From Desulfobulbus propionicus (GTDB lineage: Bacteria > Desulfobacterota > Dissulfuribacteria > Dissulfuribacterales > DYOW01), in contig DYOW01000011.1 in assembly GCA_020720325.1 (NCBI GenBank), positions 1-41,567 of the forward strand: 41,567 nt of DNA. Direction: 5' to 3'. The translations under genes and the position numbers were made by a program. The number at the start of each line of letters is the position of its first letter. Positions within the stretch are counted from its first letter, which is position 1. The notes below the pieces were generated by a model that worked only from the letters and a program-made list of their open reading frames with translations, was not told the DNA's origin and made no database searches. Below are positions 9,192 through 31,743 of this stretch, piece after piece.

Positions 9192-9958
9192 TATTAAAAG
9201 AAAATATAAAAAATTCATTTTCTAAGGCAGCAAAAACATATGATAATTATGCCTTTATCCAGAGAAACATTGCCGAAAAGCTGATTTCCTTTATTAATCA
9301 GGAGGATAAATATAAGAAAATAGTTGAGCTTGGCTGCGGAACAGGTTGCTATTCAGGGTTTTTAAGAAAAAGATTTTTGGATTCAGCTATATTATCCATT
9401 GATATATCACAGGAAATGACAGATATAGCCAGCAAGAAAAATCCGTCAATACAATGTATTAATGCAGATATTGAAACATTGGCTTTGGACTTTTTTGATG
9501 ATTTTGATTTTATCACCTCAAACAGTGTGATTCACTGGCTTAATAATCCCTTTTATTTTATAAAAAGATTTAATGAAATAAGAAAACTGCCCAAATGTCT
9601 GCTTTTTAGCATTTTTGGAAATAATACCCTTGCAGAACTAAGTAAATTTATTCAAGAACCGTTAATATCCGTATCTTTTCATTCTAAAAATGAATGGGAG
9701 TTTTTTTTGCAGGATAATTTTCCTGATAATTTTACACTTATCCCGGAAACAAGCCATAAAACCTATCCTGATTTAATAAGTCTTTTGAGGTCATTAAAAT
9801 ACACTGGTGTGAATGTGAAAGATAATAACAAATTTATATGGAGCAGGAAACTTATTAAAGAGACAGAAAAAAAAATTATTTCAGAATTTAACGAAATAAG
9901 AGTAAGTTACGAGGTCTTTTTTGTAAAAATCAATCTGTCCCCATCAAGAAGTTCATAA
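9188..9958 (+). CDS. bioC: Malonyl-ACP O-methyltransferase (BioC)
   Basis: BioC methylates malonyl-ACP to disguise it as a fatty-acid primer for pimelate synthesis. The 256 residues open with the typical FSKAAKTYDNYAFIQRNIAEKL and then show the SAM-binding motif ELGCGTG (about 47-53) and the BioC-like NSVIHWLNNP. The start is TTG at 9188, overlapping the stop of the esterase gene by 4 bases. The last 52 bases overlap the 3' end of the convergent gene on the other strand, and the final residues (NLSPSRSS) look like a non-homologous extension encoded by that overlap. Confidence 0.85.
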   Translation: MILKENIKNSFSKAAKTYDNYAFIQRNIAEKLISFINQEDKYKKIVELGCGTGCYSGFLRKRFLDSAILSIDISQEMTDIASKKNPSIQCINADIETLALDFFDDFDFITSNSVIHWLNNPFYFIKRFNEIRKLPKCLLFSIFGNNTLAELSKFIQEPLISVSFHSKNEWEFFLQDNFPDNFTLIPETSHKTYPDLISLLRSLKYTGVNVKDNNKFIWSRKLIKETEKKIISEFNEIRVSYEVFFVKINLSPSRSS

Positions 9959-11463
9959 ACATCGCCGCAGGAACTGCATATAAGATGTTCATCAAGCTTG
10001 GCGCCGCATTTGCACATCCAACCCGTTTGTCTTGCGGGATTTCCCATAAAAAGGGCATAATCCGGCACGTCCTTTGTAACCACCGCGCCTGCTCCAATAA
10101 AAGAATATTCACCCAGAGTGACTCCGCATATAATAGTTGAATTTGCCCCGATGCTTGCGCCTTTTTTAACAAGGGTTTTTCTTATTTCATCCATCCTTCT
10201 TATATGCGCCCTTGGGTTATGCACATTGGTAAAAACAACGGACGGCCCGCAAAAAACTTCGTCAGACAGGGTAACACCTTTATAAATACTCACATTATTC
10301 TGGATCTTGCACCGGCCGCCAATAGATACATCCGGGCCTATCATGACATTTTGTCCAATATTGCAATCTTTTCCAATGGTTGAACCAGCAAGGATGTGGG
10401 AAAAATGCCATATCTTTGTGCCTGTTCCAATGCTTGCATTTTTATCAATAAAAGAGCTTTCATGGACAAAAACATTGTTTATCTTGTTTGTAATGTCTAT
10501 GGGATATCCCTTTTCCAGTGATTCCTGGGCAAGATTTAATATTTGAAGAACCTTTACACCTTCTGCTCCGTCAGTGACAGGTTGTGTCCTTGAGTTTATA
10601 CACTTTAAAAATGTCTCACATTCATTAAAAAGCGGCTCTATCTCCTTAAGTTCAACTTTTTCACCTGATGCCTTCACAGGCACAGGCATGCCTTCCTTCC
10701 AGACAATTTCATGGGGATATAAGACAAGTTTTTCACTCCAGTCCAGACAATCATCAAAAACAGCCATTTTTTTATCACCCACTACAACTAATTTCTGTTC
10801 TTTATAGGGATGAAGCCAAGAGACAAATATATGGGCGCGTAATCCGCTTGAAAACTGCAAATGTGTTGTGGTGATATCCGCTATTTTTCTGTGGAGATAA
10901 TTTCCGCCGGTCGCATATATAAAATCAGGATAGTCCCCTGAAAGGGTTAATATCATGGAGATATCATGGGGGGCAAAGCTCCAGAGCGCGTTTTCTTCCC
11001 TTCTTACCTTTCCGAGATTCAGTCTGTTTGAATAGATATAATTAACCCTGCCAAGTTCGCCCGCAGATACTAGTTCTTTTAATTTAATAAAGGCATTATG
11101 ATACTGCAAAAGATGTCCAACCATGAGGATAAGATTATTTTTCACGGAAAGTTCGGTTAGTTCCTGTGCCTCGTCAATATTAAGCGCCAGGGGTTTTTCA
11201 ACAAATACGTCTTTTCCTGATAATAACGCCTCCCTTGCCTGATAAAAATGCATTTCAGCAGGGGTGGAAATCACAACAGCCTTAATGTTTTTATTATTTA
11301 TGACATCTGAATAACTTCGGGTTATATTGATTCCGGGATAATTTTCCTCTATCCATCTGATTCTTACAGGGTCTTTTTCGCAAATAACGGATAATACCCC
11401 AAGTTTATTAAAATTTCTGAGTAAATTTTTACCCCAGTATCCTGCTCCTATTAATGCAATCAT
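9907..11463 (-). CDS. Fused Gfo/Idh/MocA sugar dehydrogenase and left-handed beta-helix acyltransferase (WbpB-WbpD-like)
   Basis: A 518-residue fusion. Residues 1 to about 325 are a Gfo/Idh/MocA oxidoreductase: Rossmann motif GAGYWGKN (7-14), EKPLAL (89-94) and a catalytic-region HD pair (H166, D167). Residues about 331-480 are hexapeptide repeats of a left-handed beta-helix transferase (IGTGTKIWHFSHI..., FTNVHNPRAH). The tail has C484, C486, C496 and C499, which resembles a zinc knuckle. WbpB oxidises C3 of UDP-N-acetylglucosaminuronate and WbpD N-acetylates the resulting 3-amino sugar; the fusion would link the two steps. The usual aminotransferase partner (WbpE-like) is absent here. It is last in the glycosylation operon, 4 bases after the glycosyltransferase gene. 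The substrate is inferred. Confidence 0.82.
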   Translation of the reverse strand: MIALIGAGYWGKNLLRNFNKLGVLSVICEKDPVRIRWIEENYPGINITRSYSDVINNKNIKAVVISTPAEMHFYQAREALLSGKDVFVEKPLALNIDEAQELTELSVKNNLILMVGHLLQYHNAFIKLKELVSAGELGRVNYIYSNRLNLGKVRREENALWSFAPHDISMILTLSGDYPDFIYATGGNYLHRKIADITTTHLQFSSGLRAHIFVSWLHPYKEQKLVVVGDKKMAVFDDCLDWSEKLVLYPHEIVWKEGMPVPVKASGEKVELKEIEPLFNECETFLKCINSRTQPVTDGAEGVKVLQILNLAQESLEKGYPIDITNKINNVFVHESSFIDKNASIGTGTKIWHFSHILAGSTIGKDCNIGQNVMIGPDVSIGGRCKIQNNVSIYKGVTLSDEVFCGPSVVFTNVHNPRAHIRRMDEIRKTLVKKGASIGANSTIICGVTLGEYSFIGAGAVVTKDVPDYALFMGNPARQTGWMCKCGAKLDEHLICSSCGDVYELLDGDRLIFTKKTS

Positions 11464-11467
11464 TTTT

Positions 11468-12415
11468 TTACCTTAATGTTTTATTGTAATCCATGTCAAA
11501 CCACATGGCAAAAAAAAGGGATTGTAACCCGGATATACTTAAAAAAGCTGCAAAAAGCGCGCTTGTCTCTTGCACAGGACCCAAAAAAAGCCTGTAACCC
11601 AAAAGATAAAGCCCGAAAAAAAATCCAAAAGGTGTGAGAAATAACCCAAGAAGATAAAAAAATACAAGGGGATGAAAATCAAGTATTACATATTTGAAAA
11701 AAAGTCTTCTGAAAAAACCTTTTAAAAGTATAACGGGGATTGTAAAAATAACCCTTGAAATTTTTATGCCTGAGACCTCTCCCACATTATAAACCGGCTT
11801 CACAGAAACATCCCTGACCCTCATATTAAACTCATTAAGCCTTATGAGAAGGTCATTTGGCATGCCATATCTTTTATAAATCTTATCAGGGTCAATGGTT
11901 TCAAGGGCAAAAAGATTTATTGCTGTGTAACCGCACTGGGAGTCTGCAATATGCCAGTATCCTGAGGAAATTTTTGTCAGAAGGCTTAAAAACGCATTTC
12001 CGAGGTAACGGTGTTTGGGGATAATCTCCCATGCCTCACCATGATAAAGCCTGTTTCCCTTTGTATAATCAGCTTTATTTTCAACAACAGGCATAATGAT
12101 ATTTATTAAATCAGCAGGGTCCATCTGGGCATCCCCGGCCATTACAGCAGTGACATCAATCTTATTATCCCTTGCCCATTTATATCCTGTTGCAATAGCT
12201 CCGCCAACTCCCTGGTTAAATTCGTGGCTTATAAGAACCACCCTCGTATCAGAAAGACATTTTTCCTTTACAATTGTCTCTGTTCCGTCTGAACTACAGT
12301 CATCAACAACAATAATAAAGTCCACATAATCTGGCATTGTTTCAATAACCCTGCTGATAAGCCTAGCTTCGTTATAGGCCGGAACAACCACGGAAATTTT
12401 TTTATTGTGCAACAT
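11468..12415 (-). CDS. GT2 glycosyltransferase, dolichyl/undecaprenyl-phosphate type, membrane anchored
   Basis: A 315-residue family-2 glycosyltransferase. The GT-A core starts VVVPAYNEA and carries VVDDCSSDGT (D38, D39) for nucleotide-sugar binding, then MAGDAQMDP as the DxQMDP metal site and DSQCGYTAI further on. Two hydrophobic helices near 245-270 and 275-305 would anchor it in the cytoplasmic membrane. This layout is typical of polyprenyl-phosphate hexose synthases or of transferases that extend lipid-linked sugars. The ATG overlaps the end of the oligosaccharyltransferase gene by 14 bases, so the two proteins are probably made from one mRNA. The sugar donor cannot be read from sequence. 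Confidence 0.85.
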   Translation of the reverse strand: MLHNKKISVVVPAYNEARLISRVIETMPDYVDFIIVVDDCSSDGTETIVKEKCLSDTRVVLISHEFNQGVGGAIATGYKWARDNKIDVTAVMAGDAQMDPADLINIIMPVVENKADYTKGNRLYHGEAWEIIPKHRYLGNAFLSLLTKISSGYWHIADSQCGYTAINLFALETIDPDKIYKRYGMPNDLLIRLNEFNMRVRDVSVKPVYNVGEVSGIKISRVIFTIPVILLKGFFRRLFFKYVILDFHPLVFFYLLGLFLTPFGFFFGLYLLGYRLFLGPVQETSALFAAFLSISGLQSLFFAMWFDMDYNKTLR

Positions 12416-14636
12416 CCCCTTTTACCTTCCATATCTGAAAAAAAGGAGTGGAAATAATAACAGGTTCAAAAAATCTTTTATCCACCATTAATCTCAAAAA
12501 AATCTGATTAAAAACCGATCTTGCAATAGGTTCGTCCATTATAGCGCCATACTCAAATTTAGGGATAATTTCCACCCTTGAACCCTCTTGTCTGCCAAAA
12601 TTTATTTCATTGGGCCGCGGTGGTTCAACAATTAAAAGAGATTTTATCGCAGCCTGTTTGTTTTCAATAAAAAACACACCTTTTCTTAAGTCAAGGCTTA
12701 ATCCTTCAGGCGTTTCAAAGTTGTCACCGTTTCTTTTTATATTAAAAAGTGGATAATAATATGGATGGATACCGTCTTTTTTTGAAGGGTCCCATGTGCC
12801 AAGCCAAAACCACCAGTATGCTGTTTGCAGTAATCTTTTGTCAAGCAAGATATATGTTGGAAGGGTTTCACCCGGAAAAAGAAATTTAAGCCACTTTTCA
12901 GTATTAGTTAAGTCATCCACTGGTTTTAAAGGAGATGAAGTCAATTTCTCTCTTGTCTTGTCAGGCCCTGCGGCAAGCAATTCTTTTAGCGCATCATATC
13001 CTTCAGGGACATTGTCATAGGCCTTATAAAATTTATGAATGCCCGGAATGCCGTGGGCAATATAAAAACTGATAAAATTTGCAGAAAGCCTGAAATTATC
13101 CGTTACAAAGGGAAGGGCATTATATGCGGACCTTTCTCCTCCATGAAGTGTGCCGTCCCCGATTGTTCCTCTATTTGCCCAGAAAAGCAAGGGATAGCCA
13201 TGGTCCCACCAAGCCCAGATAACAGCGTTTGCTTCTGTTCGTTTTCCTGCCTCATCAAATGCCATAATAAGGGGGGGATCTTCCGGGGGGAAAAAGGTGT
13301 TGGTTAACACCTTAACCAAAGATGGGTAAACAAGCAAAAAGACCAGTATTGGAGTCACAAAATATATAAACTTGAACTTTTTTTTGTATGACCAGATAAA
13401 TGAAATAAAAAAACCAACTCCAAGCGCTATTACAGGCACCATAAAGATAATAAATCTTTTTGCATAAAATACAGAAAGCGCTCCTAGCACAATCGGGACA
13501 AATAATAAAAGGCCTTCTTTTGATTTTTTTACCAAAAGCAAAACCAATCCTATTAATCCTATATAAAAAGGAAAAGGATGTCCTGCTGATTTCACAATAA
13601 GTTCCATTAATTCCGGACGTTTTTGTTCAGCGACAGTAGCGCCTATTGACGGCCAAATATCCACAGTCTCTTTTACTGATATGTAGGTAAAAACAACTTT
13701 TATGCCGTTTATTATCCGCATAGGTATTTCAAGACCTTTCCATAGAAGCAAAATAAGAACAGGCATGGATAAAATTGAAAAAAAGATTAGGGCTTCTTTT
13801 TTAGAGGGTCTGTAGAAAAACAGGAGGGCAGTTAGAAAAGGTGTCAGGCTAACTACAGTGACAACTTCAGGGGTTGAATCCCACCAAAGTAAAAAAAATA
13901 AATAATTTATAATAATAGCCGCAAAATAAGCATACCGCGTTTTGCCTTTATTTATTGCAAACATAAGGGCAAGTAAAACAGATAAAACAGTCAGCGTGAC
14001 ATTGAGGCAGTCAGTATCATACCAGCCTATATTGCTTCTGTATATGTAATAATATGAAATAACGCTGAAGAGCGCTGAGACAGTTCCCATTGAAGCTCCG
14101 CCGTAATGCCTGCCAAGATAAAAAATCGGGATGCTTATCAGAGGTCCTAAAAAGACAGGTATAAAAACAGCGATCCACATATATGAAAATGGGGTAATTT
14201 TTTTTATAAATGCAGTTAAAACAGATAAAAGAGGCGGAGGAAATCTTCTTTCAACCCCAATGGGAACATCTCTTTTTTCTTCTGTTTTATCGTGATTGCC
14301 TTCAACAATATCTCTGGCAAGAGAGAGGTAGAAATAACTGTCAAAATTTATAAAAAGAGGCTCGCCGTTATAAAAAGCCCTATCAGGCTCTTTTTGCCAG
14401 TCATAAAGATCCTGAACCCTTAAAGACATGCCAATCAGGACAATTATTACCAGAATAGCAATTTCAATATATGTTTTATTTAAAAAGGGTTTTAAAAAAT
14501 CAAGCTGTGAAAAAGAGCTTTTTTCAGAAACTGTCTGTTTATCTGAATCTGAATAAGACACAGTTTCTGAATTTATTTCAGAAACTTTTTCCTGAGTAAT
14601 ATTTTCTTTTCTCTTTTTCTCTTTTTTTTTTGCCAT
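12402..14636 (-). CDS. pglB: Oligosaccharyltransferase, STT3/PglB/AglB family
   Basis: A 744-residue membrane enzyme that would transfer a lipid-linked glycan to asparagine in exported proteins. A Lys/Ser-rich cytoplasmic tail (1-56) precedes a first membrane helix at about 57-72, with about a dozen more up to residue 440 and a periplasmic C-terminal domain. Family hallmarks are present: acidic D99 in the first external loop (NFDSYF), the DxD pair D207/D209 in WYDTD, E337 in the TVAE loop motif and the sequon-binding WWDHG at 476-480. WWDxG is shared by STT3, AglB and PglB. It heads an operon with a GT2 enzyme and a sugar-tailoring fusion. Specificity (N-linked sequon, glycan) is inferred from the family. 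Confidence 0.88.
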   Translation of the reverse strand: MAKKKEKKRKENITQEKVSEINSETVSYSDSDKQTVSEKSSFSQLDFLKPFLNKTYIEIAILVIIVLIGMSLRVQDLYDWQKEPDRAFYNGEPLFINFDSYFYLSLARDIVEGNHDKTEEKRDVPIGVERRFPPPLLSVLTAFIKKITPFSYMWIAVFIPVFLGPLISIPIFYLGRHYGGASMGTVSALFSVISYYYIYRSNIGWYDTDCLNVTLTVLSVLLALMFAINKGKTRYAYFAAIIINYLFFLLWWDSTPEVVTVVSLTPFLTALLFFYRPSKKEALIFFSILSMPVLILLLWKGLEIPMRIINGIKVVFTYISVKETVDIWPSIGATVAEQKRPELMELIVKSAGHPFPFYIGLIGLVLLLVKKSKEGLLLFVPIVLGALSVFYAKRFIIFMVPVIALGVGFFISFIWSYKKKFKFIYFVTPILVFLLVYPSLVKVLTNTFFPPEDPPLIMAFDEAGKRTEANAVIWAWWDHGYPLLFWANRGTIGDGTLHGGERSAYNALPFVTDNFRLSANFISFYIAHGIPGIHKFYKAYDNVPEGYDALKELLAAGPDKTREKLTSSPLKPVDDLTNTEKWLKFLFPGETLPTYILLDKRLLQTAYWWFWLGTWDPSKKDGIHPYYYPLFNIKRNGDNFETPEGLSLDLRKGVFFIENKQAAIKSLLIVEPPRPNEINFGRQEGSRVEIIPKFEYGAIMDEPIARSVFNQIFLRLMVDKRFFEPVIISTPFFQIWKVKGDVAQ

Positions 14637-16146: not shown

Positions 16147-16527
16147 ATGAAGGCTCTCGTAGTTGACGACTCTGGTTCAATGCGAAATATTGTTAAATCC
16201 AGCATTTCAAAACTCGGAATATTTGATGAGATTTATGAAGCTGAGAATGGACTTGAGGCGCTAAAAAAATTAGAGGAGAAGGGGCATATTGATCTTGTTT
16301 TGCTTGACTGGTATATGCCCGTTATGGAAGGATACGACTGCCTTCTTCAGATAAGACAGAATTCAAATTGGGAAGATATAAAGGTTATGATGGTTACCAC
16401 TGAAAATCAGCAGGAAAATATTATAAGGGCAGTAATCGCAGGGGCTAATGAATACCTGATGAAACCCTTTACTGAAGAGATGATTCAGGAAAAAGTAAGG
16501 ATGGCGCTCTCTTTATATGATGAGTAA
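16147..16527 (+). CDS. cheY: CheY-like single-domain response regulator
   Basis: A 126-residue receiver domain alone. The acidic pocket D7/D8, phospho-acceptor D54 (LLDWYMP), T84/T85 and K106 (LMKPF) are all present, so it should be phosphorylated by a CheA-type kinase. There is no output domain. It leads a three-gene run with cheB and cheR and overlaps cheB by 11 bases. The ribosome-binding site GGGGGA is at 16135-16140. No CheA, CheW or receptor gene is in the window, so the cognate kinase must be encoded elsewhere. Whether it acts on flagella or on type IV pili is not visible. Confidence 0.9.
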   Translation: MKALVVDDSGSMRNIVKSSISKLGIFDEIYEAENGLEALKKLEEKGHIDLVLLDWYMPVMEGYDCLLQIRQNSNWEDIKVMMVTTENQQENIIRAVIAGANEYLMKPFTEEMIQEKVRMALSLYDE

Positions 16528-17797
16528 AGTTCTTGTAGTGGATGATTCCATTGTTTTCAGAAAAATTCTTATTGAGTCATTAAGCAATCAAAGATGTATA
16601 AGGGTTTTGGAAGCCTGTTCTAATGGTAAAGATGCGCTTGTAAAAATAAGACAGTTAAAACCGGATGTTGTTGTGCTTGATGTGGAAATGCCTGAAATGG
16701 ATGGAATGCAAACCCTTCAGGAAATAAAAAGACAAAAACTTGATGTAGGCGTTATTATGTTCTCTGGTTTGACTCAGGAAGGAGCTCAGATAACATTTGA
16801 TGCGCTTTCAAAAGGCGCTTTTGATTTTGTTCCCAAACCCTCTGGCTCTGGAAATTTTTATGAAAGTGTTCAAAAGACCCGCAGAGAGTTAACCGATAGA
16901 ATCACAGCATATATGGAGACCAAATCCTCCTTTGTTCAGATAAAAAGACCTGCGCAGCCGCCACCATTAATAAAACAACTTGAGCCTGAAGAGCAGAAAC
17001 AACAAGAAGAGATGCCTTTAAAAAATATTAACACACCTGTTCAACAGCCATTATCCCCCAGACAGGAAATCCCACAAACACAAAAAATCATGACACCACC
17101 AAGACATAATATTATTAAAATACCCAAACAACCATCAGAAAGTCCTGCTGCAAAAATAGCAGCGCAAAAAACTGTAGATAGACCCCGCCCTGCCCCCAAG
17201 GTTTTTTTTCCCGGAAAAATAGAGGCGGTTGGAATTGGCATATCCACAGGGGGACCAAATGCATTAAATGAGATGATCCCTAAAATTCCCTCATCATTTA
17301 CAGTTCCTGTATTTATTGTGCAACATATGCCTCCTGTTTTTACCACCCAGCTTGCAAAAAGACTTGATGAAAAATCTCCGTTAAAAGTTGTGGAGGCTCA
17401 GGATAATATGCCTGTTGAACCTGCAACAGTCTATCTTGCGCCAGGAGATTTTCATATGACCGTAAGTATTGTAAATAGTCAGAAGATAATCAAATTAAAT
17501 CAGGATGCGCCTGAAAACAGTTGCAGACCTGCTGTAGATGTGCTGTTTCGTTCCCTTGCTTCTGTGTATGGAAGTAGGGCGCTGGCAGTTATTATGACAG
17601 GAATGGGGCAGGACGGTTTAAAAGGCGCGGTGTTAATGAAAGAAAAAGGAGCCTACATTTTTGCGCAGGACAAAGAAACTTCGGTTGTCTGGGGTATGCC
17701 AAGGTTTGTTACAGAGGCAGGTCTTGCGGATAAGATATGCCCTTTAAGTGATATAGCAAATTGTATTCTACAGATTTCAGGAGTGTTAACCAGATGA
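16517..17797 (+). CDS. cheB: Chemotaxis protein-glutamate methylesterase CheB
   Basis: CheB removes methyl groups from receptor glutamates (and deamidates glutamines) to reset chemosensory receptors. The 426 residues comprise an N-terminal receiver (phospho-acceptor D55 in VLDVEMPEMDG), a long Pro/Gln-rich linker at about 145-230 and the C-terminal methylesterase with catalytic S243 (GISTGG), H270 (VQHMP) and D366 (TGMGQDG). The linker is much longer than in E. coli CheB (349 residues in total), which accounts for the extra length. Two consecutive ATG codons are possible starts. It overlaps cheY and meets cheR in an ATGA. Confidence 0.93.
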   Translation: MMSKVLVVDDSIVFRKILIESLSNQRCIRVLEACSNGKDALVKIRQLKPDVVVLDVEMPEMDGMQTLQEIKRQKLDVGVIMFSGLTQEGAQITFDALSKGAFDFVPKPSGSGNFYESVQKTRRELTDRITAYMETKSSFVQIKRPAQPPPLIKQLEPEEQKQQEEMPLKNINTPVQQPLSPRQEIPQTQKIMTPPRHNIIKIPKQPSESPAAKIAAQKTVDRPRPAPKVFFPGKIEAVGIGISTGGPNALNEMIPKIPSSFTVPVFIVQHMPPVFTTQLAKRLDEKSPLKVVEAQDNMPVEPATVYLAPGDFHMTVSIVNSQKIIKLNQDAPENSCRPAVDVLFRSLASVYGSRALAVIMTGMGQDGLKGAVLMKEKGAYIFAQDKETSVVWGMPRFVTEAGLADKICPLSDIANCILQISGVLTR

Positions 17798-18600
17798 TTA
17801 CACAGGAACAATTTAAATATTTTGCGTTATTGGTTAAAAGAGAAAGTGGTATTTCCCTTGCTGACGGCAAAGAATATCTTGTTGAAAGCAGGCTAAATGA
17901 ACTGGCAAAGATTCTTGGTTTAAGGGATATAAATGATCTTTATAATTCCTGTAAGAATAATCTCACTTCAAAGTTAAAAGATCAGATTGTTGACGCAATG
18001 ACAACAAATGAGACATATTTTTTCAGGGATCAGCACCCGTTTGATTGTCTTAAAAAAGAAATAGTTCCGGAACATGTCCAAAAAAACGGCGCTAACCTTA
18101 AAATCTGGTGCGCCGCATGTTCAACCGGTCAGGAACCATACAGCATAAGCATGTTGTTTTCTGATTTTTTTCCGTCATTAAACGCAAAAATTATTGCGAC
18201 AGACATCTCACCCCAGGTACTTAACAAGGCAAAACATGGAAAATACTCTCAAATTGAAGTGAACAGGGGGCTTCAGATCACCCTTCTTATCAAACATTTT
18301 AAACAAGCCGGGGCTTTTTGGGAGATTAATGATTCAATCAAAAAAAGGATAGATTTCAAAAGCCTTAATCTCATTGGCTCATGGGGGATGGATTTATCAA
18401 ATCTTGATATAGTTTTTTGCAGGTATGTTTTAATATATTTTGAGCAAGATACTAAAAAACAAATACTCGAAAAGATTGAAAGGTCATTAAATCCTGGCGG
18501 TTGTCTGTTCCTTGGCGCCACAGAGACCCCAATAGGATTAAGCCCGAATATGAAAAAGGTTATTTCAGGAAAAACTACTTATTGGGTAAAGGAAAAATAG
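17794..18600 (+). CDS. cheR: Chemotaxis receptor methyltransferase CheR
   Basis: CheR methylates glutamates on chemoreceptors with S-adenosylmethionine, opposing CheB. The start used here is the ATG at 17794, which overlaps the cheB stop (ATGA) and gives 268 residues beginning MITQEQFKYF. A longer frame from a TTG at 17761 would lie inside cheB and is less likely. The N-terminal helical domain runs to about residue 75, TTNETYFFRD marks the junction, the SAM-binding loop is CAACSTGQEPYS (about 106-117), and FCRYVLIYF near 210 is the typical methyltransferase motif. It is the last gene of the trio, followed by a repeat element. Confidence 0.92.
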   Translation: MITQEQFKYFALLVKRESGISLADGKEYLVESRLNELAKILGLRDINDLYNSCKNNLTSKLKDQIVDAMTTNETYFFRDQHPFDCLKKEIVPEHVQKNGANLKIWCAACSTGQEPYSISMLFSDFFPSLNAKIIATDISPQVLNKAKHGKYSQIEVNRGLQITLLIKHFKQAGAFWEINDSIKKRIDFKSLNLIGSWGMDLSNLDIVFCRYVLIYFEQDTKKQILEKIERSLNPGGCLFLGATETPIGLSPNMKKVISGKTTYWVKEK

Positions 18601-26157: not shown

Positions 26158-26190
26158 AAAAAGGGTTATGTTTTTGGCATAACCCTTTTT
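26158..26190. terminator. Bidirectional terminator between the MidA gene and the pilB operon
   Basis: AAAAAGGGTTATG (26158-26170) is the perfect inverse of CATAACCCTTTTT (26178-26190), with a 7-base loop. A and T tracts on either side let it work for both converging transcripts. Confidence 0.85.
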
Positions 26191-26220: not shown

Positions 26221-28770
26221 CTACTTAATACAGACAGCCCTTACCTGATTGATATCTGTCAATCCTTTTAGAACCTTTTGGATGCCGTCTTGTTTAAGGG
26301 TCATCATGCCGTTTCTTTTTGCAGCATCAAATATTTCAAAAACAGGGGATTTTCCTTGGATTAGCTTTCTTATTTCATCATTATTTGTAAGTAGTTCATG
26401 GATACCAAGCCTTCCTTTATAGCCTTTATTATCACATTTTTTGCATCCAACAGACTTAAACATTGTTGCTTCCTTAAAACTGTCATATGTTAAAGGATAA
26501 ACGGGACTGTCACCATATTCTTCAATTAATTCATCCATTTGTTCCTTTGTTGGCTCATACTGTTCTTTACAATTTGCGCATAATCTTCTTCCAAGTCTCT
26601 GGGCAAGAACTCCGATCAGGGCATCAGAAAAGTTAAAAGGATCCATTCCCATACCAAGAAGCCTTGTCAGTGTTTCAGGCGCTGAGTTGGTATGAAGGGT
26701 TGAGAAAACAAGGTGACCTGTTAATGACGCCTCAATAACTGTATGGGCTGTTTCTTCATCCCTTGTTTCACCGACCATTATTATGTCAGGGTCAGCCCTT
26801 AGAAATGCTCTCATAACTCTGGAAAAGTTTAGCCCTATTCCAGGCTTTACCTGCACTTGTCTCAGACCTTTTTGAACAATTTCAACAGGATCTTCCGCAG
26901 TCCAGATTTTTTTGTTTTCCCTGTTTACATAATTTAGGGCAGCATGAAGAGTTGTGGTTTTACCAGAACCAGTAGGACCAACAACAAATACCAGACCATA
27001 TGGAAGAGCAAGCATTTTTTCAAATTGCTGGTACACATGGTCAAGAAGACCTATTTTATCAAGGGGCATAGCGCCGGCGCTTGCAAGTATTCTCATTACA
27101 ACATCTTCGTTATCACCAATAGTAGGAAGAGTTGCCACACGAAGTTCAATAGCCTGACCTTTTCTTGTTTTAAACTTTATCTTACCGTCCTGAGGCAGTC
27201 TTTTTTCAGCAATATCAAGACTAGACATTATTTTTATCCTTGATACAAGGGCTTTTTTATAAGTAACAGGAATTCTCTGATATATCTTACAATCTCCGTC
27301 AATCCTGAATCTTATTAAAGCGCCCAGCTTTTCAGGCATGCATTCTATGTGGATATCAGAGGTATTCTGGTTAAAAGCATCATCAATAATCGTATTTGCA
27401 AGCTTTACAACAACGTTATCAGTTTCAGAATATCCTGTTGTTTCTTTTTCATCAACTTCTTCTTCAACAGCATTGCCTAATTCCTCAAAAATTTCCTCTG
27501 ACGCATCTTTTTTGATCTTATCATAAAAGAAATCAATAAATTTTTCTATATCATCCTTAAAAGAAACCGCATATTCAATCTTTTTATTCTTTTTATTGAC
27601 TGATTTTTTTATCAGGTCGCCTTTCTGCATGTCATGGGGATTGTCAATAGCAATAATAACAGTGCCTTCATCCTCATAAATAGGCACAAAACCGCTTGAT
27701 CTCAAAAAATGTTCACTTATATGCTGAACACATTCTGGTTTTGCTTCAAGCTCAAGTTGATTATATTCCTTAAAGGGAACTTTGTAATATTCACTTAATG
27801 ATTCACCAAGCTGGAATTTATCAACACCAAAATCAGAAAGAAGGACTGTTTCAACTGATTTTCTGTCATGTCTTGCTTTTTCTCTGGCTTCATCAAGCTT
27901 TTCAGGGGTGATCATCTCATTTTTTATTAAATAATAAAATTGACCATATTTTTGTGTGGTCTTGGTAAGGGCTTCAAGCCTGATTCTTACATTTCCATAA
28001 TTGGGATCAATTCTGTTGATTCTTTCGTATTCGGCTATTGCCTGGGGCATGGAACCGTTTTTTTCATACGTGATTGCAAGCTGATAAAGAATTTTAAGAC
28101 GAACTTCCCTGTTGAGTTTATTATCCTTTAATGCCTCAGTAAAGTAATCTATGGCATCATAAGGTTGATCAATGGAAATATACGCTTCACCTATTTTTGC
28201 ATAAATAAGACCATGATGATGACCGCTGTCAATTATTGATTTTAATTCTGAAATTGCCTCAGTAAAAAAACCTGCCTCCATGAGACCGGTTGCATTTTCA
28301 AGGGATCTTTTAATATCAAATTGAGCTGTTGACGCCGCGGCAGTAAAAGATTCCTCAAGAAAATTTGTTTCAAGTTGTTTTATCCTGTCTCGCAGTTTGT
28401 CTGCAAATGGGTGAGACTCCTTAAAAAAATCCTGGGGAAGGGTTTTATAAATATTGCTTGCTTCTTTATATAAACCCTGATTTGCATAATACTCAGCTTC
28501 TTTGAATATCTTATCAACATTTGAAGGCTTAGTCTCTGGTTTTACTTCTTTGACCGGAGGAGGTTTTATCTCTTTTTTTTCATCAAGATAAACATATTTT
28601 TTTTCAGTTTTTTTGGCAGTTAATGTGGTTAATAGTTTTTGTGCCTTCGCCTGAATTTCTTCTTCTTTCGCTGGATTTTTAATTATCTCTTCAAGGATTT
28701 CTATGGCTTCTGCGCTTAAACCTTGTTGAATGTATAAATTCGCTTCCTTTAATCTTTCTGCTAAGTCCAT
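26221..28770 (-). CDS. pilB: TPR-fused type IV pilus assembly ATPase (PilB/GspE family)
   Basis: An 849-residue protein with an unusual N-terminal extension. Residues about 1-50 and 85-265 are helical, TPR-like repeats (for example AKIGEAYISIDQPYDAIDYF) separated by a Pro/Lys linker. Residues about 285-410 match the MshEN/GspE N-terminal domain (typically c-di-GMP binding), and 450-849 are the secretion ATPase. The ATPase has Walker A GPTGSGKTT (598-606), a Walker B region ADPDIIMVGE (659-668) and a tetracysteine zinc site (C731, C734, C776, C779). PilB powers pilus extension at the inner membrane. It lies 10 bases after the adaptor gene and is last in the roadblock/GTPase operon. No pilC, pilT or pilin gene is present here, and a GspE role remains possible. 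Confidence 0.9.
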   Translation of the reverse strand: MDLAERLKEANLYIQQGLSAEAIEILEEIIKNPAKEEEIQAKAQKLLTTLTAKKTEKKYVYLDEKKEIKPPPVKEVKPETKPSNVDKIFKEAEYYANQGLYKEASNIYKTLPQDFFKESHPFADKLRDRIKQLETNFLEESFTAAASTAQFDIKRSLENATGLMEAGFFTEAISELKSIIDSGHHHGLIYAKIGEAYISIDQPYDAIDYFTEALKDNKLNREVRLKILYQLAITYEKNGSMPQAIAEYERINRIDPNYGNVRIRLEALTKTTQKYGQFYYLIKNEMITPEKLDEAREKARHDRKSVETVLLSDFGVDKFQLGESLSEYYKVPFKEYNQLELEAKPECVQHISEHFLRSSGFVPIYEDEGTVIIAIDNPHDMQKGDLIKKSVNKKNKKIEYAVSFKDDIEKFIDFFYDKIKKDASEEIFEELGNAVEEEVDEKETTGYSETDNVVVKLANTIIDDAFNQNTSDIHIECMPEKLGALIRFRIDGDCKIYQRIPVTYKKALVSRIKIMSSLDIAEKRLPQDGKIKFKTRKGQAIELRVATLPTIGDNEDVVMRILASAGAMPLDKIGLLDHVYQQFEKMLALPYGLVFVVGPTGSGKTTTLHAALNYVNRENKKIWTAEDPVEIVQKGLRQVQVKPGIGLNFSRVMRAFLRADPDIIMVGETRDEETAHTVIEASLTGHLVFSTLHTNSAPETLTRLLGMGMDPFNFSDALIGVLAQRLGRRLCANCKEQYEPTKEQMDELIEEYGDSPVYPLTYDSFKEATMFKSVGCKKCDNKGYKGRLGIHELLTNNDEIRKLIQGKSPVFEIFDAAKRNGMMTLKQDGIQKVLKGLTDINQVRAVCIK

Positions 28771-28780
28771 AGCTTATATA

Positions 28781-30697
28781 TTAAGAACCTCTTTTGAGAG
28801 AAATAATTTTGATTTTTTCGTCATCCTTTTGGAGATAACCTATAAAATCTCCTTCTTCAGCAGGAACCCATTTATAATCCAGGGTACTCTTAACCTGTAG
28901 CGTATGGTCGGTAAAGAGAAAGCATCCTTCATTCTCCTTAAAAAGAATAAGCACATTTGGATTTTGAGAAATACCAAGGGGATGATTAGGAGATTTTTTA
29001 AGAGGCAATGACATTGCAGAAAGCTTTTCTTCAGGGAGAGAAGACATTCTTCCTCTTAGTAAAGGACTAATTTTTGACCATGGCCATTGTTTAAGGTATT
29101 TTAAAGGTATATTTGTCATTCTTATTACCTTTTGACGATACCATATTGGAAGATTTCCGTCAAATGAAATTTCATCAGGAATAAAACCAACCTTTTCTCT
29201 TCCCCAAACAGTGATATATATTTCAGGAAGGCTGAATTCATCAGATACAACAGCTTTTTCAAAAGTTTTATGCTCAGTTGAAATTTTTTCTTTAACTTCT
29301 TTTTTTTCTGCAGTTTTGACATCCACTTTGCCAATATGTGTAGGCTCAGGAAAGGGTTCCCTTGCAGGCGCTACATCTGAAGGTATTTCTCCGGTAACAA
29401 ACTGACAAATCCACTTTTTATCATTTTCTATCTCATTTCTTAAGGTTTGAGCAAACATACACAATTTATTTAAAGATGGGATTCCACAACACACAGTCTC
29501 CAGATTTTTAATTTTTTCAATATAACTGTTAAAATGTCTTATCTGTGTTTTTATAATTTCATCAGGGTCATGAGCAAATTCCATTTTTAATGATGAAGCA
29601 GGTAAGGAAGGTTTTTTTGTTTCAGGAGGCGCAGGGGGTGGAGTTGGTTTTTCTTCAAATTCCTGGATTGAAAGCTGCAAGCCCTCTTCGTGTTTTGTTT
29701 CTTGCTGTAAAGGGATATCGGTTTGTTTTGTTACAACAATTGTTTCAACTTTTCCCTTGGGAGCGTCAAACATTTCAGTTGTTTCTTCAATTACTAGTTC
29801 AAGGTGAATAACAGGAAGTGGTTCTTCAGTTGTTATTTTTTCTTCAACAGGAGCGCTTGCTTTACCTGTTAAACTTGCAGAAAGAGACTGTTCCAAAGCC
29901 ATGTCAAAAGAATCAAAAGTTTGCTCATCTTCAGCAGGTTTTACTGATTCGGAAGATTCAGTCGTGGTAAATTCTGCGCTTTTTTCTTCTGTGTCTTCAA
30001 GGATAGCAATTTCAAAATCTGGTATTGCTTCTTCTTCAACTGCTGGTTCTAAAGCAATTTCAGTAATTACAGCTTCTTTTTCAACTGGCTCAGGCGTCGC
30101 TGATATTTGTTTATAGCCTCTTGCAAAGGATGCTTTAATATCTTCAAGAAGGGTAAGAGTTGAACTGACACTATCGCCTGCCATGAGTATAGCGTCATCA
30201 CCTTTTTCAATATATAAAATAATAATGTCAAGACCTCTTTGTATCGCGATAGGTCCTTTTGCAGGAATTTTTAATGGATTTGCATGCATTAATTCGAGAT
30301 TGTCCTGAATAAAGGTATAAATACTTTTTGCAACAATGTTATCAAGTTTTACCTTTGATGCCAGTTCATTAACATAATTTTTAACAGCTAAAATATTTTT
30401 ATCAGTAATTTCCCATTCAAATGTTAATACTGCCTGGTTCAATTCTTCTAAAAATACCTGTAAATCATCTTTGGGTTTTGAGGCTTGGGGCGGAGCCTGG
30501 GCAGCAGGTGGAGGTGGTGTTGCAGGAGCAGGAGAGGGAGCTGGCGCTGGAGCAACAGTAACTTGTTCTTCAAGTTCTTTGATTTGGTTAGTAAGTGGAT
30601 CTATCTCAATTGCTCTTTTGGGGGTAAAAAGGGAATCAATTGAACTTTCCATTTCATCAGAAAAAAAATCAAAATCCTTTTTTTGATTATCTGCCAT
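28781..30697 (-). CDS. Large Pro-rich/acidic adaptor-like protein, function unknown
   Basis: A 638-residue soluble protein with no signal peptide. After a charged N-terminus comes an Ala/Pro-rich linker (about 49-75), a helical region at about 77-195, a long Glu/Thr-rich low-complexity region at about 200-390, a second helical stretch at about 395-450 and a beta-rich C-terminus at about 500-638. The last part (VLILFKENEGCFLF, then FIGYLQKDDEKIKIISL) faintly resembles a CheW-like fold; this is inference only. The gene sits between the MglA-like GTPase and TPR-PilB with gaps of 20 and 10 bases. The domain layout suggests a scaffold linking the switch to the motor. I do not recognise the family. 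Confidence 0.75.
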   Translation of the reverse strand: MADNQKKDFDFFSDEMESSIDSLFTPKRAIEIDPLTNQIKELEEQVTVAPAPAPSPAPATPPPPAAQAPPQASKPKDDLQVFLEELNQAVLTFEWEITDKNILAVKNYVNELASKVKLDNIVAKSIYTFIQDNLELMHANPLKIPAKGPIAIQRGLDIIILYIEKGDDAILMAGDSVSSTLTLLEDIKASFARGYKQISATPEPVEKEAVITEIALEPAVEEEAIPDFEIAILEDTEEKSAEFTTTESSESVKPAEDEQTFDSFDMALEQSLSASLTGKASAPVEEKITTEEPLPVIHLELVIEETTEMFDAPKGKVETIVVTKQTDIPLQQETKHEEGLQLSIQEFEEKPTPPPAPPETKKPSLPASSLKMEFAHDPDEIIKTQIRHFNSYIEKIKNLETVCCGIPSLNKLCMFAQTLRNEIENDKKWICQFVTGEIPSDVAPAREPFPEPTHIGKVDVKTAEKKEVKEKISTEHKTFEKAVVSDEFSLPEIYITVWGREKVGFIPDEISFDGNLPIWYRQKVIRMTNIPLKYLKQWPWSKISPLLRGRMSSLPEEKLSAMSLPLKKSPNHPLGISQNPNVLILFKENEGCFLFTDHTLQVKSTLDYKWVPAEEGDFIGYLQKDDEKIKIISLKRGS

Positions 30698-30717
30698 GTT
30701 CCATCTCCATAAAAAAA

Positions 30718-31344
30718 TTAGACTTGTTTAGATTGGGAAAATATATGTTTATTAGCGACCTGTCTTACTGTTAGCTTGCTTATTTCCCTTAATGTTTCAA
30801 AAACTCCTGTACCCTTGGTGGCTGATACCTCAAACTGAGAAAATCTTTTTATCTTATTAAGGTCATTTTCCATTTCCTGAACGCTTAAGATAGGAATTGG
30901 AGATGATGCAAGATCTCTCTTATTATATTGTAAAACCACGGGTGTTTCAGTAATAGGTTTGTTTATTTCAAGTAAATTCCTTTCAAGTTCCTTAAAACTC
31001 TCAATATTTTTCTGCTGTCTCACCCTCAGAGAATCAGCGACGAATACTATGCCGTCAACGCCTTTTAATACAAGCTTTCTTGTTGCTTCATAAATACTTT
31101 GTCCGGGAACGGTATAAAGCTGTATTCTGATATCAAAGCCCCCGACCTTACCTAAATTTACGGGGAGAAGATCAAAAAATAAGGTTCTGTCACCCTTTGT
31201 TTCAATGGTGAGCATCTTGCCCCTTACATTATCAGTCATTGAATTGTAGATGTAAAGGAGATTGGTGGTTTTACCGCACCTACCCGGACCGTAATAGACA
31301 ATTTTGCAATTTACTTCTTTTTTACTAAGATCTATTAATGCCAT
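30718..31344 (-). CDS. MglA-like small Ras-family GTPase
   Basis: A 208-residue bacterial GTPase. The P-loop is GPGRCGKTT (G19-T27), the switch-II region reads TVPGQ (T78-Q82) rather than the usual DxxGQ, and the G4 motif is NKRD (141-144). TVPGQ is the signature of the MglA group. MglA-GTP marks the leading pole and controls type IV pili and gliding in Myxococcus; MglB, a roadblock protein, is its GAP. The neighbouring roadblock gene 9 bases upstream and the pilus ATPase downstream make a similar polarity or motility switch likely here. The C-terminal extension (HIFSQSKQV) is short and polar. Confidence 0.9.
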   Translation of the reverse strand: MALIDLSKKEVNCKIVYYGPGRCGKTTNLLYIYNSMTDNVRGKMLTIETKGDRTLFFDLLPVNLGKVGGFDIRIQLYTVPGQSIYEATRKLVLKGVDGIVFVADSLRVRQQKNIESFKELERNLLEINKPITETPVVLQYNKRDLASSPIPILSVQEMENDLNKIKRFSQFEVSATKGTGVFETLREISKLTVRQVANKHIFSQSKQV

Positions 31345-31353
31345 GTTTTTTTC

Positions 31354-31743
31354 CTAATCACCAAGGATTTCTTGAAGGCTTTTAATAAGCTCATTTACCC
31401 TGAGTCTTATTATGCCCAAGGAAACTTCTTCGCCAAAAATGGTTATCATAATAAATTCCTGATTTATCTTGGAAAAATGAACACTATCTTTTTTGCCTTT
31501 ATGAAAGAGCAATGAAAAATCTTCTTCACCAATCATTTTCGCAATTTGCGAAGTGGCAGCAAAATTAGCGGCAGTCAAGGCTGCCAGAGAAATGGAATCA
31601 GGGATATCTTTCCCGCAATTTATTACAACATTTCCAGCTGAATCTACTATAAGAACAGAGCCAACACCGGCTGAAATTAATGTTCCTTCAATTCTGTCTC
31701 TTATTTTTTCAAAGGTGGCAGCCGTCAATACTATGTCCAGCAT
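31354..31743 (-). CDS. Roadblock/LC7-domain protein (MglB-like)
   Basis: A 129-residue single roadblock/LC7 domain: VLIVDSAGNVVINCG in the first beta-hairpin, then LAALTAANFAATSQIAKMIGEEDF in the helix (key parts only) and IMITIFGEEVSLGIIRLRV near the end. Such proteins dimerise and act as GTPase-activating or nucleotide-state partners of MglA-type GTPases. It is the first gene of a four-gene operon, with GGAG in its leader and a TATAAT-like box (minus strand, 31788-31793) about 45 bases before the ATG without a good -35. The GAP activity itself is inferred from the family and the gene pairing. Confidence 0.85.
   Translation of the reverse strand: MLDIVLTAATFEKIRDRIEGTLISAGVGSVLIVDSAGNVVINCGKDIPDSISLAALTAANFAATSQIAKMIGEEDFSLLFHKGKKDSVHFSKINQEFIMITIFGEEVSLGIIRLRVNELIKSLQEILGD

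Follow-up and report, generated by a model that had tools for sequence, protein, structure and literature searches.

In Myxococcus xanthus, MglA-GTP on the C-terminal TPRs of SgmX brings the pilus ATPase PilB to the pole (PMC7519303, PMC7668184, PMC11580455). Specifically, three C-terminal TPRs of SgmX (TPRs 12-14) bind MglA-GTP (PMC7668184), and polar PilB requires SgmX (PMC7668184, PMC11580455). Direct contacts between SgmX and PilB or between SgmX and PilM were not detected in that species (PMC11580455). Here we describe an operon in which an MglA/MglB pair stands beside a PilB that carries a TPR region of its own, together with an adaptor that resembles chemosensory proteins.

The window, by which we mean the whole stretch of 41,567 nucleotides that was analysed, is contig 22 of a 2.44 Mb draft genome. 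From position 31743 to 26221 its minus strand carries genes for MglB, MglA, a 638-aa adaptor and an 849-aa TPR-PilB, in that order. As the first-pass annotation had described, the four genes lie on one strand with gaps of 9, 20 and 10 bases. A strong stem-loop with a T-run downstream of them marks the end of the transcription unit. The features of the operon are as follows.

31354 to 31743, minus strand: mglB-like gene for a Roadblock/LC7 protein of 129 aa (Pfam Robl_LC7, 38.1 bits against a cut-off of 23)
30718 to 31344, minus strand: mglA-like gene for a small GTPase of 208 aa (P-loop G19-T27, R53, T78VPGQ82, NKRD at 141-144)
28781 to 30697, minus strand: adaptor gene, 638 aa, a putative CheA-like scaffold without a kinase domain
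26221 to 28770, minus strand: TPR-PilB gene for a type IV pilus extension ATPase with an N-terminal TPR region, 849 aa (TPR, MshEN and T2SSE domains)
26158 to 26190, no strand assigned: stem-loop with T-runs on both sides, a terminator-like operon end

Elsewhere in the window, a gene with a weak match, far under the cut-off, to PglB/STT3-like oligosaccharyltransferases (12402-14636) lies near a sugar dehydrogenase-acyltransferase fusion (9907-11463), and the two may form a protein glycosylation locus.

The GTPase and its partner were readily recognised. The M. xanthus and Thermus MglA structures were by far the best PDB matches of the window GTPase (E down to 7.5e-60), which has the features that define MglA, namely the P-loop, Arg53, Thr78 within TVPGQ, Gln82 and NKxD. 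These elements (P-loop, R53, T78VPGQ82 and NKRD) are invariant among 14 sequences from several orders, and only five of the 46 genomes in the window's GTDB order lack an MglA of this type; where present it is mostly 67-77% identical. The 129-aa protein has the Roadblock/LC7 fold, its gene adjoins mglA, and its best PDB match is MglB (E 8.6e-18). It lacks the C-terminal extension seen in M. xanthus MglB, the alignment stopping at query residue 125 and, in the 167-aa chain, at residue 127. Pfam domains and PDB matches thus agree with the identities that had been proposed for the MglB-like, MglA-like and TPR-extended pilus proteins.

The first-pass annotation had suggested a search for the four-gene order in other genomes and had named an adaptor gene not kept beside the others as the outcome that would count against its reading. 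Among the 38 loci that were read in the window's GTDB order, MglB, MglA, adaptor and TPR-PilB are contiguous and on one strand in 32, and the adaptor gene is present in every locus save one, a paralogous cluster (L095). The outcome named as adverse was thus not observed. The remaining exceptions are three loci cut by contig ends (L085, L101 and L104), one with only mglA and the adaptor (L094), and L034. The identical order also occurs in three further Desulfobacterota families (f79, L039; f97, L230; f68, L231-L233). Because it is kept in 32 of the 38 loci and in these families, the four-gene order is not a product of chance. Compact four-gene loci appear to cluster in a GTPase tree (FastTree, midpoint root), for which many loci were too short to be scored. 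The genes flanking the operon vary among loci of the order, and divergent genes for HDOD and receiver-CheB proteins are found in many.

Two kinds of variation within the order are worth recording. At L034 (7626-7856, genome G029) the roadblock gene looks degenerate, with only a C-terminal remnant that matches, and mglA, adaptor and TPR-PilB are kept. In addition, two genomes contain second, diverged MglB-MglA clusters (L095 and L096), the latter with an adaptor and a TPR region that runs to the contig end.

The last gene of the operon encodes a PilB with an addition at its N terminus, and its parts can be placed as follows.

27934 to 28521, minus strand: TPR module, residues 84-279, kept in the order and elsewhere beside mglA
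27520 to 27783, minus strand: MshEN domain, residues 330-417 (Pfam)
26242 to 27426, minus strand: T2SSE ATPase core, residues 449-843 (Walker A GPTGSGKTT at 598, GETRD at 667)

The protein has the makings of a PilB, including MshEN and the T2SSE core, the Walker A motif and two CxxC pairs. PDB structures of PilB/PilF match only residues 280-847, so residues 1-279 are an addition. Could the operon serve something other than twitching, such as pilus-related secretion by another PilB-family machine? In favour of such a role, TPR-PilB reaches 517.8 bits where the NCBIfam PilB equivalog cut-off is 675.65, and no pilC or pilin gene adjoins it, but its best PDB relatives are PilB/PilF, followed by GspE, and the T2SS-type ATPase of this genome is a separate gene adjoining gspG. 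The genome also has a type IV pilus core, with a gene run that starts with PilM on contig C96 and two PilT-like ATPases. We therefore regard a non-twitching role as very improbable. Other PilB-like ATPases exist in the genome, however, so it is not certain which of them drives the T4aP machine. One further PilB-like ATPase (contig C7 of genome G000, L107) lies with genes for a PilC/GspF-like protein, an XrtA/PEP-CTERM-type ATPase, an HDOD protein and a hybrid kinase.

Two readings of TPR-PilB were set aside. The c-di-GMP receptor form of MshEN consists of two RLGxx(L/V/I)2xxG...LxxxLxxQ motifs (PMC5013675). This motif is not kept in the window just before and within MshEN (27520-27954, QFYYLIKNEMITPEKLDEAREKA), nor in the relatives compared, and we rejected control by c-di-GMP through this domain. 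The loss is consistent with a possible change from c-di-GMP control to control by a GTPase. Membership of the TPR region in the SgmX family was likewise rejected on score, at 28 bits where the cut-off is 1800. The SgmX model aligns weakly through its C-terminal part (947-1018) with residues 202-273, and other TPR proteins score about alike; moreover, an SgmX consists solely of 14 TPRs, and the TPR region of the window is fused to PilB.

Beyond the order, the TPR module accompanies mglA. In one draw of 297 genomes of the phylum, 29 had a full-length TPR match in a PilB-length open frame and were counted as TPR-PilB genomes; in those lying outside the window's order, the sequences were all TPR plus PilB. 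We found mglA in 27 of the 29 (MglA was not found in TPR-PilB genome G074) and in 138 of the 268 others (Fisher p 6e-6, kinship ignored). Proximity is a stronger argument than this count, with mglA lying within 10 kb of TPR-PilB in 15 of the 16 mglA-positive TPR-PilB genomes outside the order. TPR-PilB directly follows mglA in two genomes (G208 and G288); directly adjacent genes are seen at loci L244 and L245.

Furthermore, the module exists without PilB. Among 80 mglA loci of named genomes, 31 encode it as a protein of its own, some 220-380 aa long, directly upstream of mglA, the place that is held by MglB at 33 other loci of the 80, with no overlap between the two sets. The match of these proteins to the TPR profile is in register over about 130-150 positions, and no Pfam TPR was found in the example tested. 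At four other loci, the module is joined to a predicted Ser/Thr protein kinase domain in a gene that follows MglB, MglA and adaptor, which is PilB's position in the operon (at L124, mglB is only partly covered at a contig end).

L119, 10484 to 12121: TPR-Ser/Thr kinase gene
L122, 10393 to 12039: TPR-Ser/Thr kinase gene
L124, 2581 to 4161: TPR-Ser/Thr kinase gene
L126, 10529 to 12115: TPR-Ser/Thr kinase gene

Because the module recurs beside mglA as a separate protein and as a kinase fusion, this domain-fusion evidence suggests that its partner belongs to the MglA system, with PilB as one output among several. An argument can be made that the operon reflects co-regulation only, that is, MglA/MglB and PilB share an operon for motility and the TPRs bind another part of the pilus machine, such as PilM. 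TPRs are indeed generic binding repeats. Nevertheless, co-expression by itself does not explain why the module is tied to mglA in three architectures (standalone, with PilB and with a kinase), and we consider this explanation improbable. As for distribution, replacement of mglB by a TPR-module protein of about 300 aa directly upstream of mglA is seen in many Desulfobacterales (31 loci, L127-L180), and at the one locus scanned (L134) a gene for a PATAN (DUF4388) and cNMP-binding protein comes next.

The adaptor had been described as uncharacterised. This holds in so far as no Pfam or NCBIfam family was found for the window protein, whereas its folds could be recognised with AlphaFold and Foldseek as CheW/CheA-P5 and P1. 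AlphaFold2, with 35 orthologues, gave four confidently folded parts (residues 9-24, 78-199, 378-435 and 492-638) with disordered Pro-rich/acidic linkers between them.

30626 to 30673, minus strand: N-terminal helix, residues 9-24, with an (E)xxIDxLF motif whose F persists in over 90% of sequences, those from beyond the order included
30101 to 30466, minus strand: CheA P1 (Hpt)-like helical bundle, residues 78-199, with an LTLEWE motif (pLDDT mostly above 90)
29393 to 29566, minus strand: two-helix hairpin, residues 378-435, in the place of CheA P3 by position only
28784 to 29224, minus strand: CheW/CheA-P5-like beta domain, residues 492-638, assigned by Foldseek and a chain of hhalign comparisons

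Adaptors of the order are only about 20-26% identical to that of the window, and conservation is strongest in the N-terminal helix and in an LxLEWE motif, the W of which is invariant in the wider set. When the window model was compared with the PDB by Foldseek, the best 16 matches were all CheW/CheA, and CheA P1 chains were among the next. The other model, built for a compact homologue of 434 aa in family f68 (mean pLDDT 83), had CheW/CheA as its best 18 matches and CheA P1 chains, including R. sphaeroides CheA3, lower in the list. By this measure the C-terminal domain has the CheW fold in both models. The profile comparisons run through intermediates: hhalign gave 99% (E 8e-18) between the C-terminal domains of the order's adaptors and of the wider set, and 87% (E 4e-6) between the latter and CheW/CheA-P5. 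The direct profile match between the order's beta domain and CheW was negative (2%), so the CheW-like assignment is carried by the folds and the intermediate homologues. Similarly, no match at the Pfam CheW cut-off was found in the window adaptor; of the 26 wider homologues, 6 gave a Pfam CheW match (best 1e-14). For the N-terminal bundle, hhalign gave 88% against CheA P1 (E 2.8e-6), with controls at or below 1.4%, and the bundle profile matched the P1 (residues 15-115) of a CheA encoded in the same genome (E 9e-5). We rate this P1 match as moderate.

The adaptor is nonetheless not a CheA. All CheA homologues in a published survey contain P1, P3, P4 and P5 (PMC10782961), and a P4 kinase (HATPase) domain is absent from the families found in 35 adaptors, and the folded portions of the models leave no room for one. 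The P1-like bundle has no conserved histidine of the kind that is phosphorylated in CheA. We accordingly rejected the candidate of a full CheA, which would have both kinase domain and histidine, and at the other extreme that of a protein with no homology to anything, which the structure and profile comparisons contradict. Equation of the hairpin with CheA P3 was also dropped; it has position but no sequence support, the hhalign comparisons made being negative. With a CheW/CheA-P5 fold at its C terminus and a P1-like bundle without phospho-histidine, the protein is best called a putative kinase-less CheA-like scaffold. Its N-terminal helix and bundle may be the docking parts.

What, then, would the adaptor dock on? 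One alternative, close to what the first-pass annotation had proposed, is that it serves as effector of MglA and forms a bridge between MglA and the TPRs, which would bind its N-terminal helix and never be touched by MglA. In f44 genomes (L235, L239 and L243) the adaptor gene comes directly before TPR-PilB and mglA is several kb off, and the helix and LxLEWE, its best conserved motifs, resemble docking surfaces. Yet at the 31 loci where the separate TPR protein adjoins mglA there is no adaptor match, and these loci, together with the two genomes in which mglA directly precedes TPR-PilB, argue for a link between the TPR module and MglA that is independent of the adaptor. We consider the bridge unlikely. 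Short homologues of about 200-250 aa, which consist of the N-terminal part only, adjoin mglA at L157, L160 and L238, so the adaptor may bind both MglA and the TPR region. It is more likely that the direct link from MglA to the motor is the TPR region and that the adaptor would be an input scaffold, or that it does both.

The source of such input probably lies outside the operon. Two CheA proteins and separate CheW are encoded in the genome, and the models suggest that the CheW-like domain of the adaptor could dock on one of its chemosensory complexes. Together with that domain, the HDOD and receiver-CheB neighbours point to possible chemosensory input from outside the operon. Possible partners are also present in the window, outside the operon:

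16147 to 18600, plus strand: CheY-like receiver, receiver-CheB and CheR genes

These genes are on the opposite strand, 7.6 kb from the operon. The first-pass annotation had proposed a self-contained switch-to-motor module. That it is a conserved module is upheld, in that its order is kept across families and TPR-PilB occurs almost always in genomes that have mglA, mostly in one cluster with it, but ‘self-contained’ is doubtful because of the CheW-like domain of the adaptor and the divergent HDOD and receiver-CheB neighbours in many members of the order.

Taken together, we lean towards a reading in which an MglA/MglB polarity switch is wired to the type IV pilus motor and the adaptor joins chemosensory input to it. 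Its binding steps are what we infer from gene content, operon conservation, domain folds, the association of TPR module and mglA, and the exchange of PilB for a Ser/Thr kinase as output domain. MglA-GTP would bind the TPR region fused to PilB, and in this bound form would place or license PilB at the pilus machine of one pole. With TPRs and ATPase in one chain, the simplest reading is that MglA-GTP acts on the motor directly. MglB, as a GAP, would clear MglA-GTP elsewhere. The adaptor would dock on a chemosensory array by its CheW-like domain, and its N-terminal helix and bundle would convey the state of the array to the complex of MglA and TPR-PilB. More tentatively, as a generalisation that we find attractive but would not yet call probable, MglA/MglB and a kinase-less CheA-like scaffold could be a common front end, with one TPR module plugging into exchangeable outputs, whether pilus motor or Ser/Thr kinase. 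If true, this would be an undescribed signalling architecture that joins chemosensory arrays directly to Ras-like GTPases without phosphotransfer on the scaffold. There is a real chance that such an adaptor-centred, output-swapping architecture forms a class of its own.

These findings have implications for how the MglA pathway can be studied. Here TPR and PilB are one polypeptide and the pathway comes to four genes, some of which are available in complete single-contig genomes. How MglA reaches PilB thereby becomes a matter for a two-protein binding assay or structure. The operon would offer a compact version of the link from MglA to the pilus motor that the Myxococcus model still lacks. A fast-evolving adaptor without any family now has a domain reading, which suggests that bacterial Ras-like GTPases may couple to chemosensory scaffolds.

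The operon is a variant of the MglA-to-pilus pathway, and we found no published description of the four-gene set, of a TPR-PilB fusion with MglA or of a kinase-less CheA beside MglA in the open-access literature. Like the actinobacterial conservons (MglA group 2), it joins MglA-like and MglB-like genes in a four-gene operon that is conserved (PMC4316618), but the other two genes of conservons encode a histidine kinase and CvnC, with no pilus ATPase (PMC4316618), in place of the adaptor and TPR-PilB. PATAN (DUF4388) neighbours of MglA have been described (PMC4316618) and were also seen here at loci of other desulfobacterial orders, whereas Pfam revealed none beside mglA in the window. As in Frz/Chp-type control, chemosensory proteins would act on MglA or on type IV pili, a link that genes and folds suggest for the window; the differences are that the adaptor is devoid of a kinase domain and that its gene lies inside the MglA operon. 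Hpt domains without histidine are known from ChpA (PMC10782961). R. sphaeroides CheA3 resembles the adaptor in that P1 and P5 are parted by a long stretch without a working kinase, but its P1 keeps a histidine that is phosphorylated (PMC10782961), which the adaptor lacks. Finally, the operon shares with the MglA-MglB-SgmX-PilB pathway of M. xanthus an MglA/MglB switch, a TPR protein region and PilB as output. In M. xanthus, SgmX is a separate protein of 14 TPRs, whereas the TPR region of the window is part of PilB itself, and the genes of the window are gathered, CheA-like adaptor included, into one operon.
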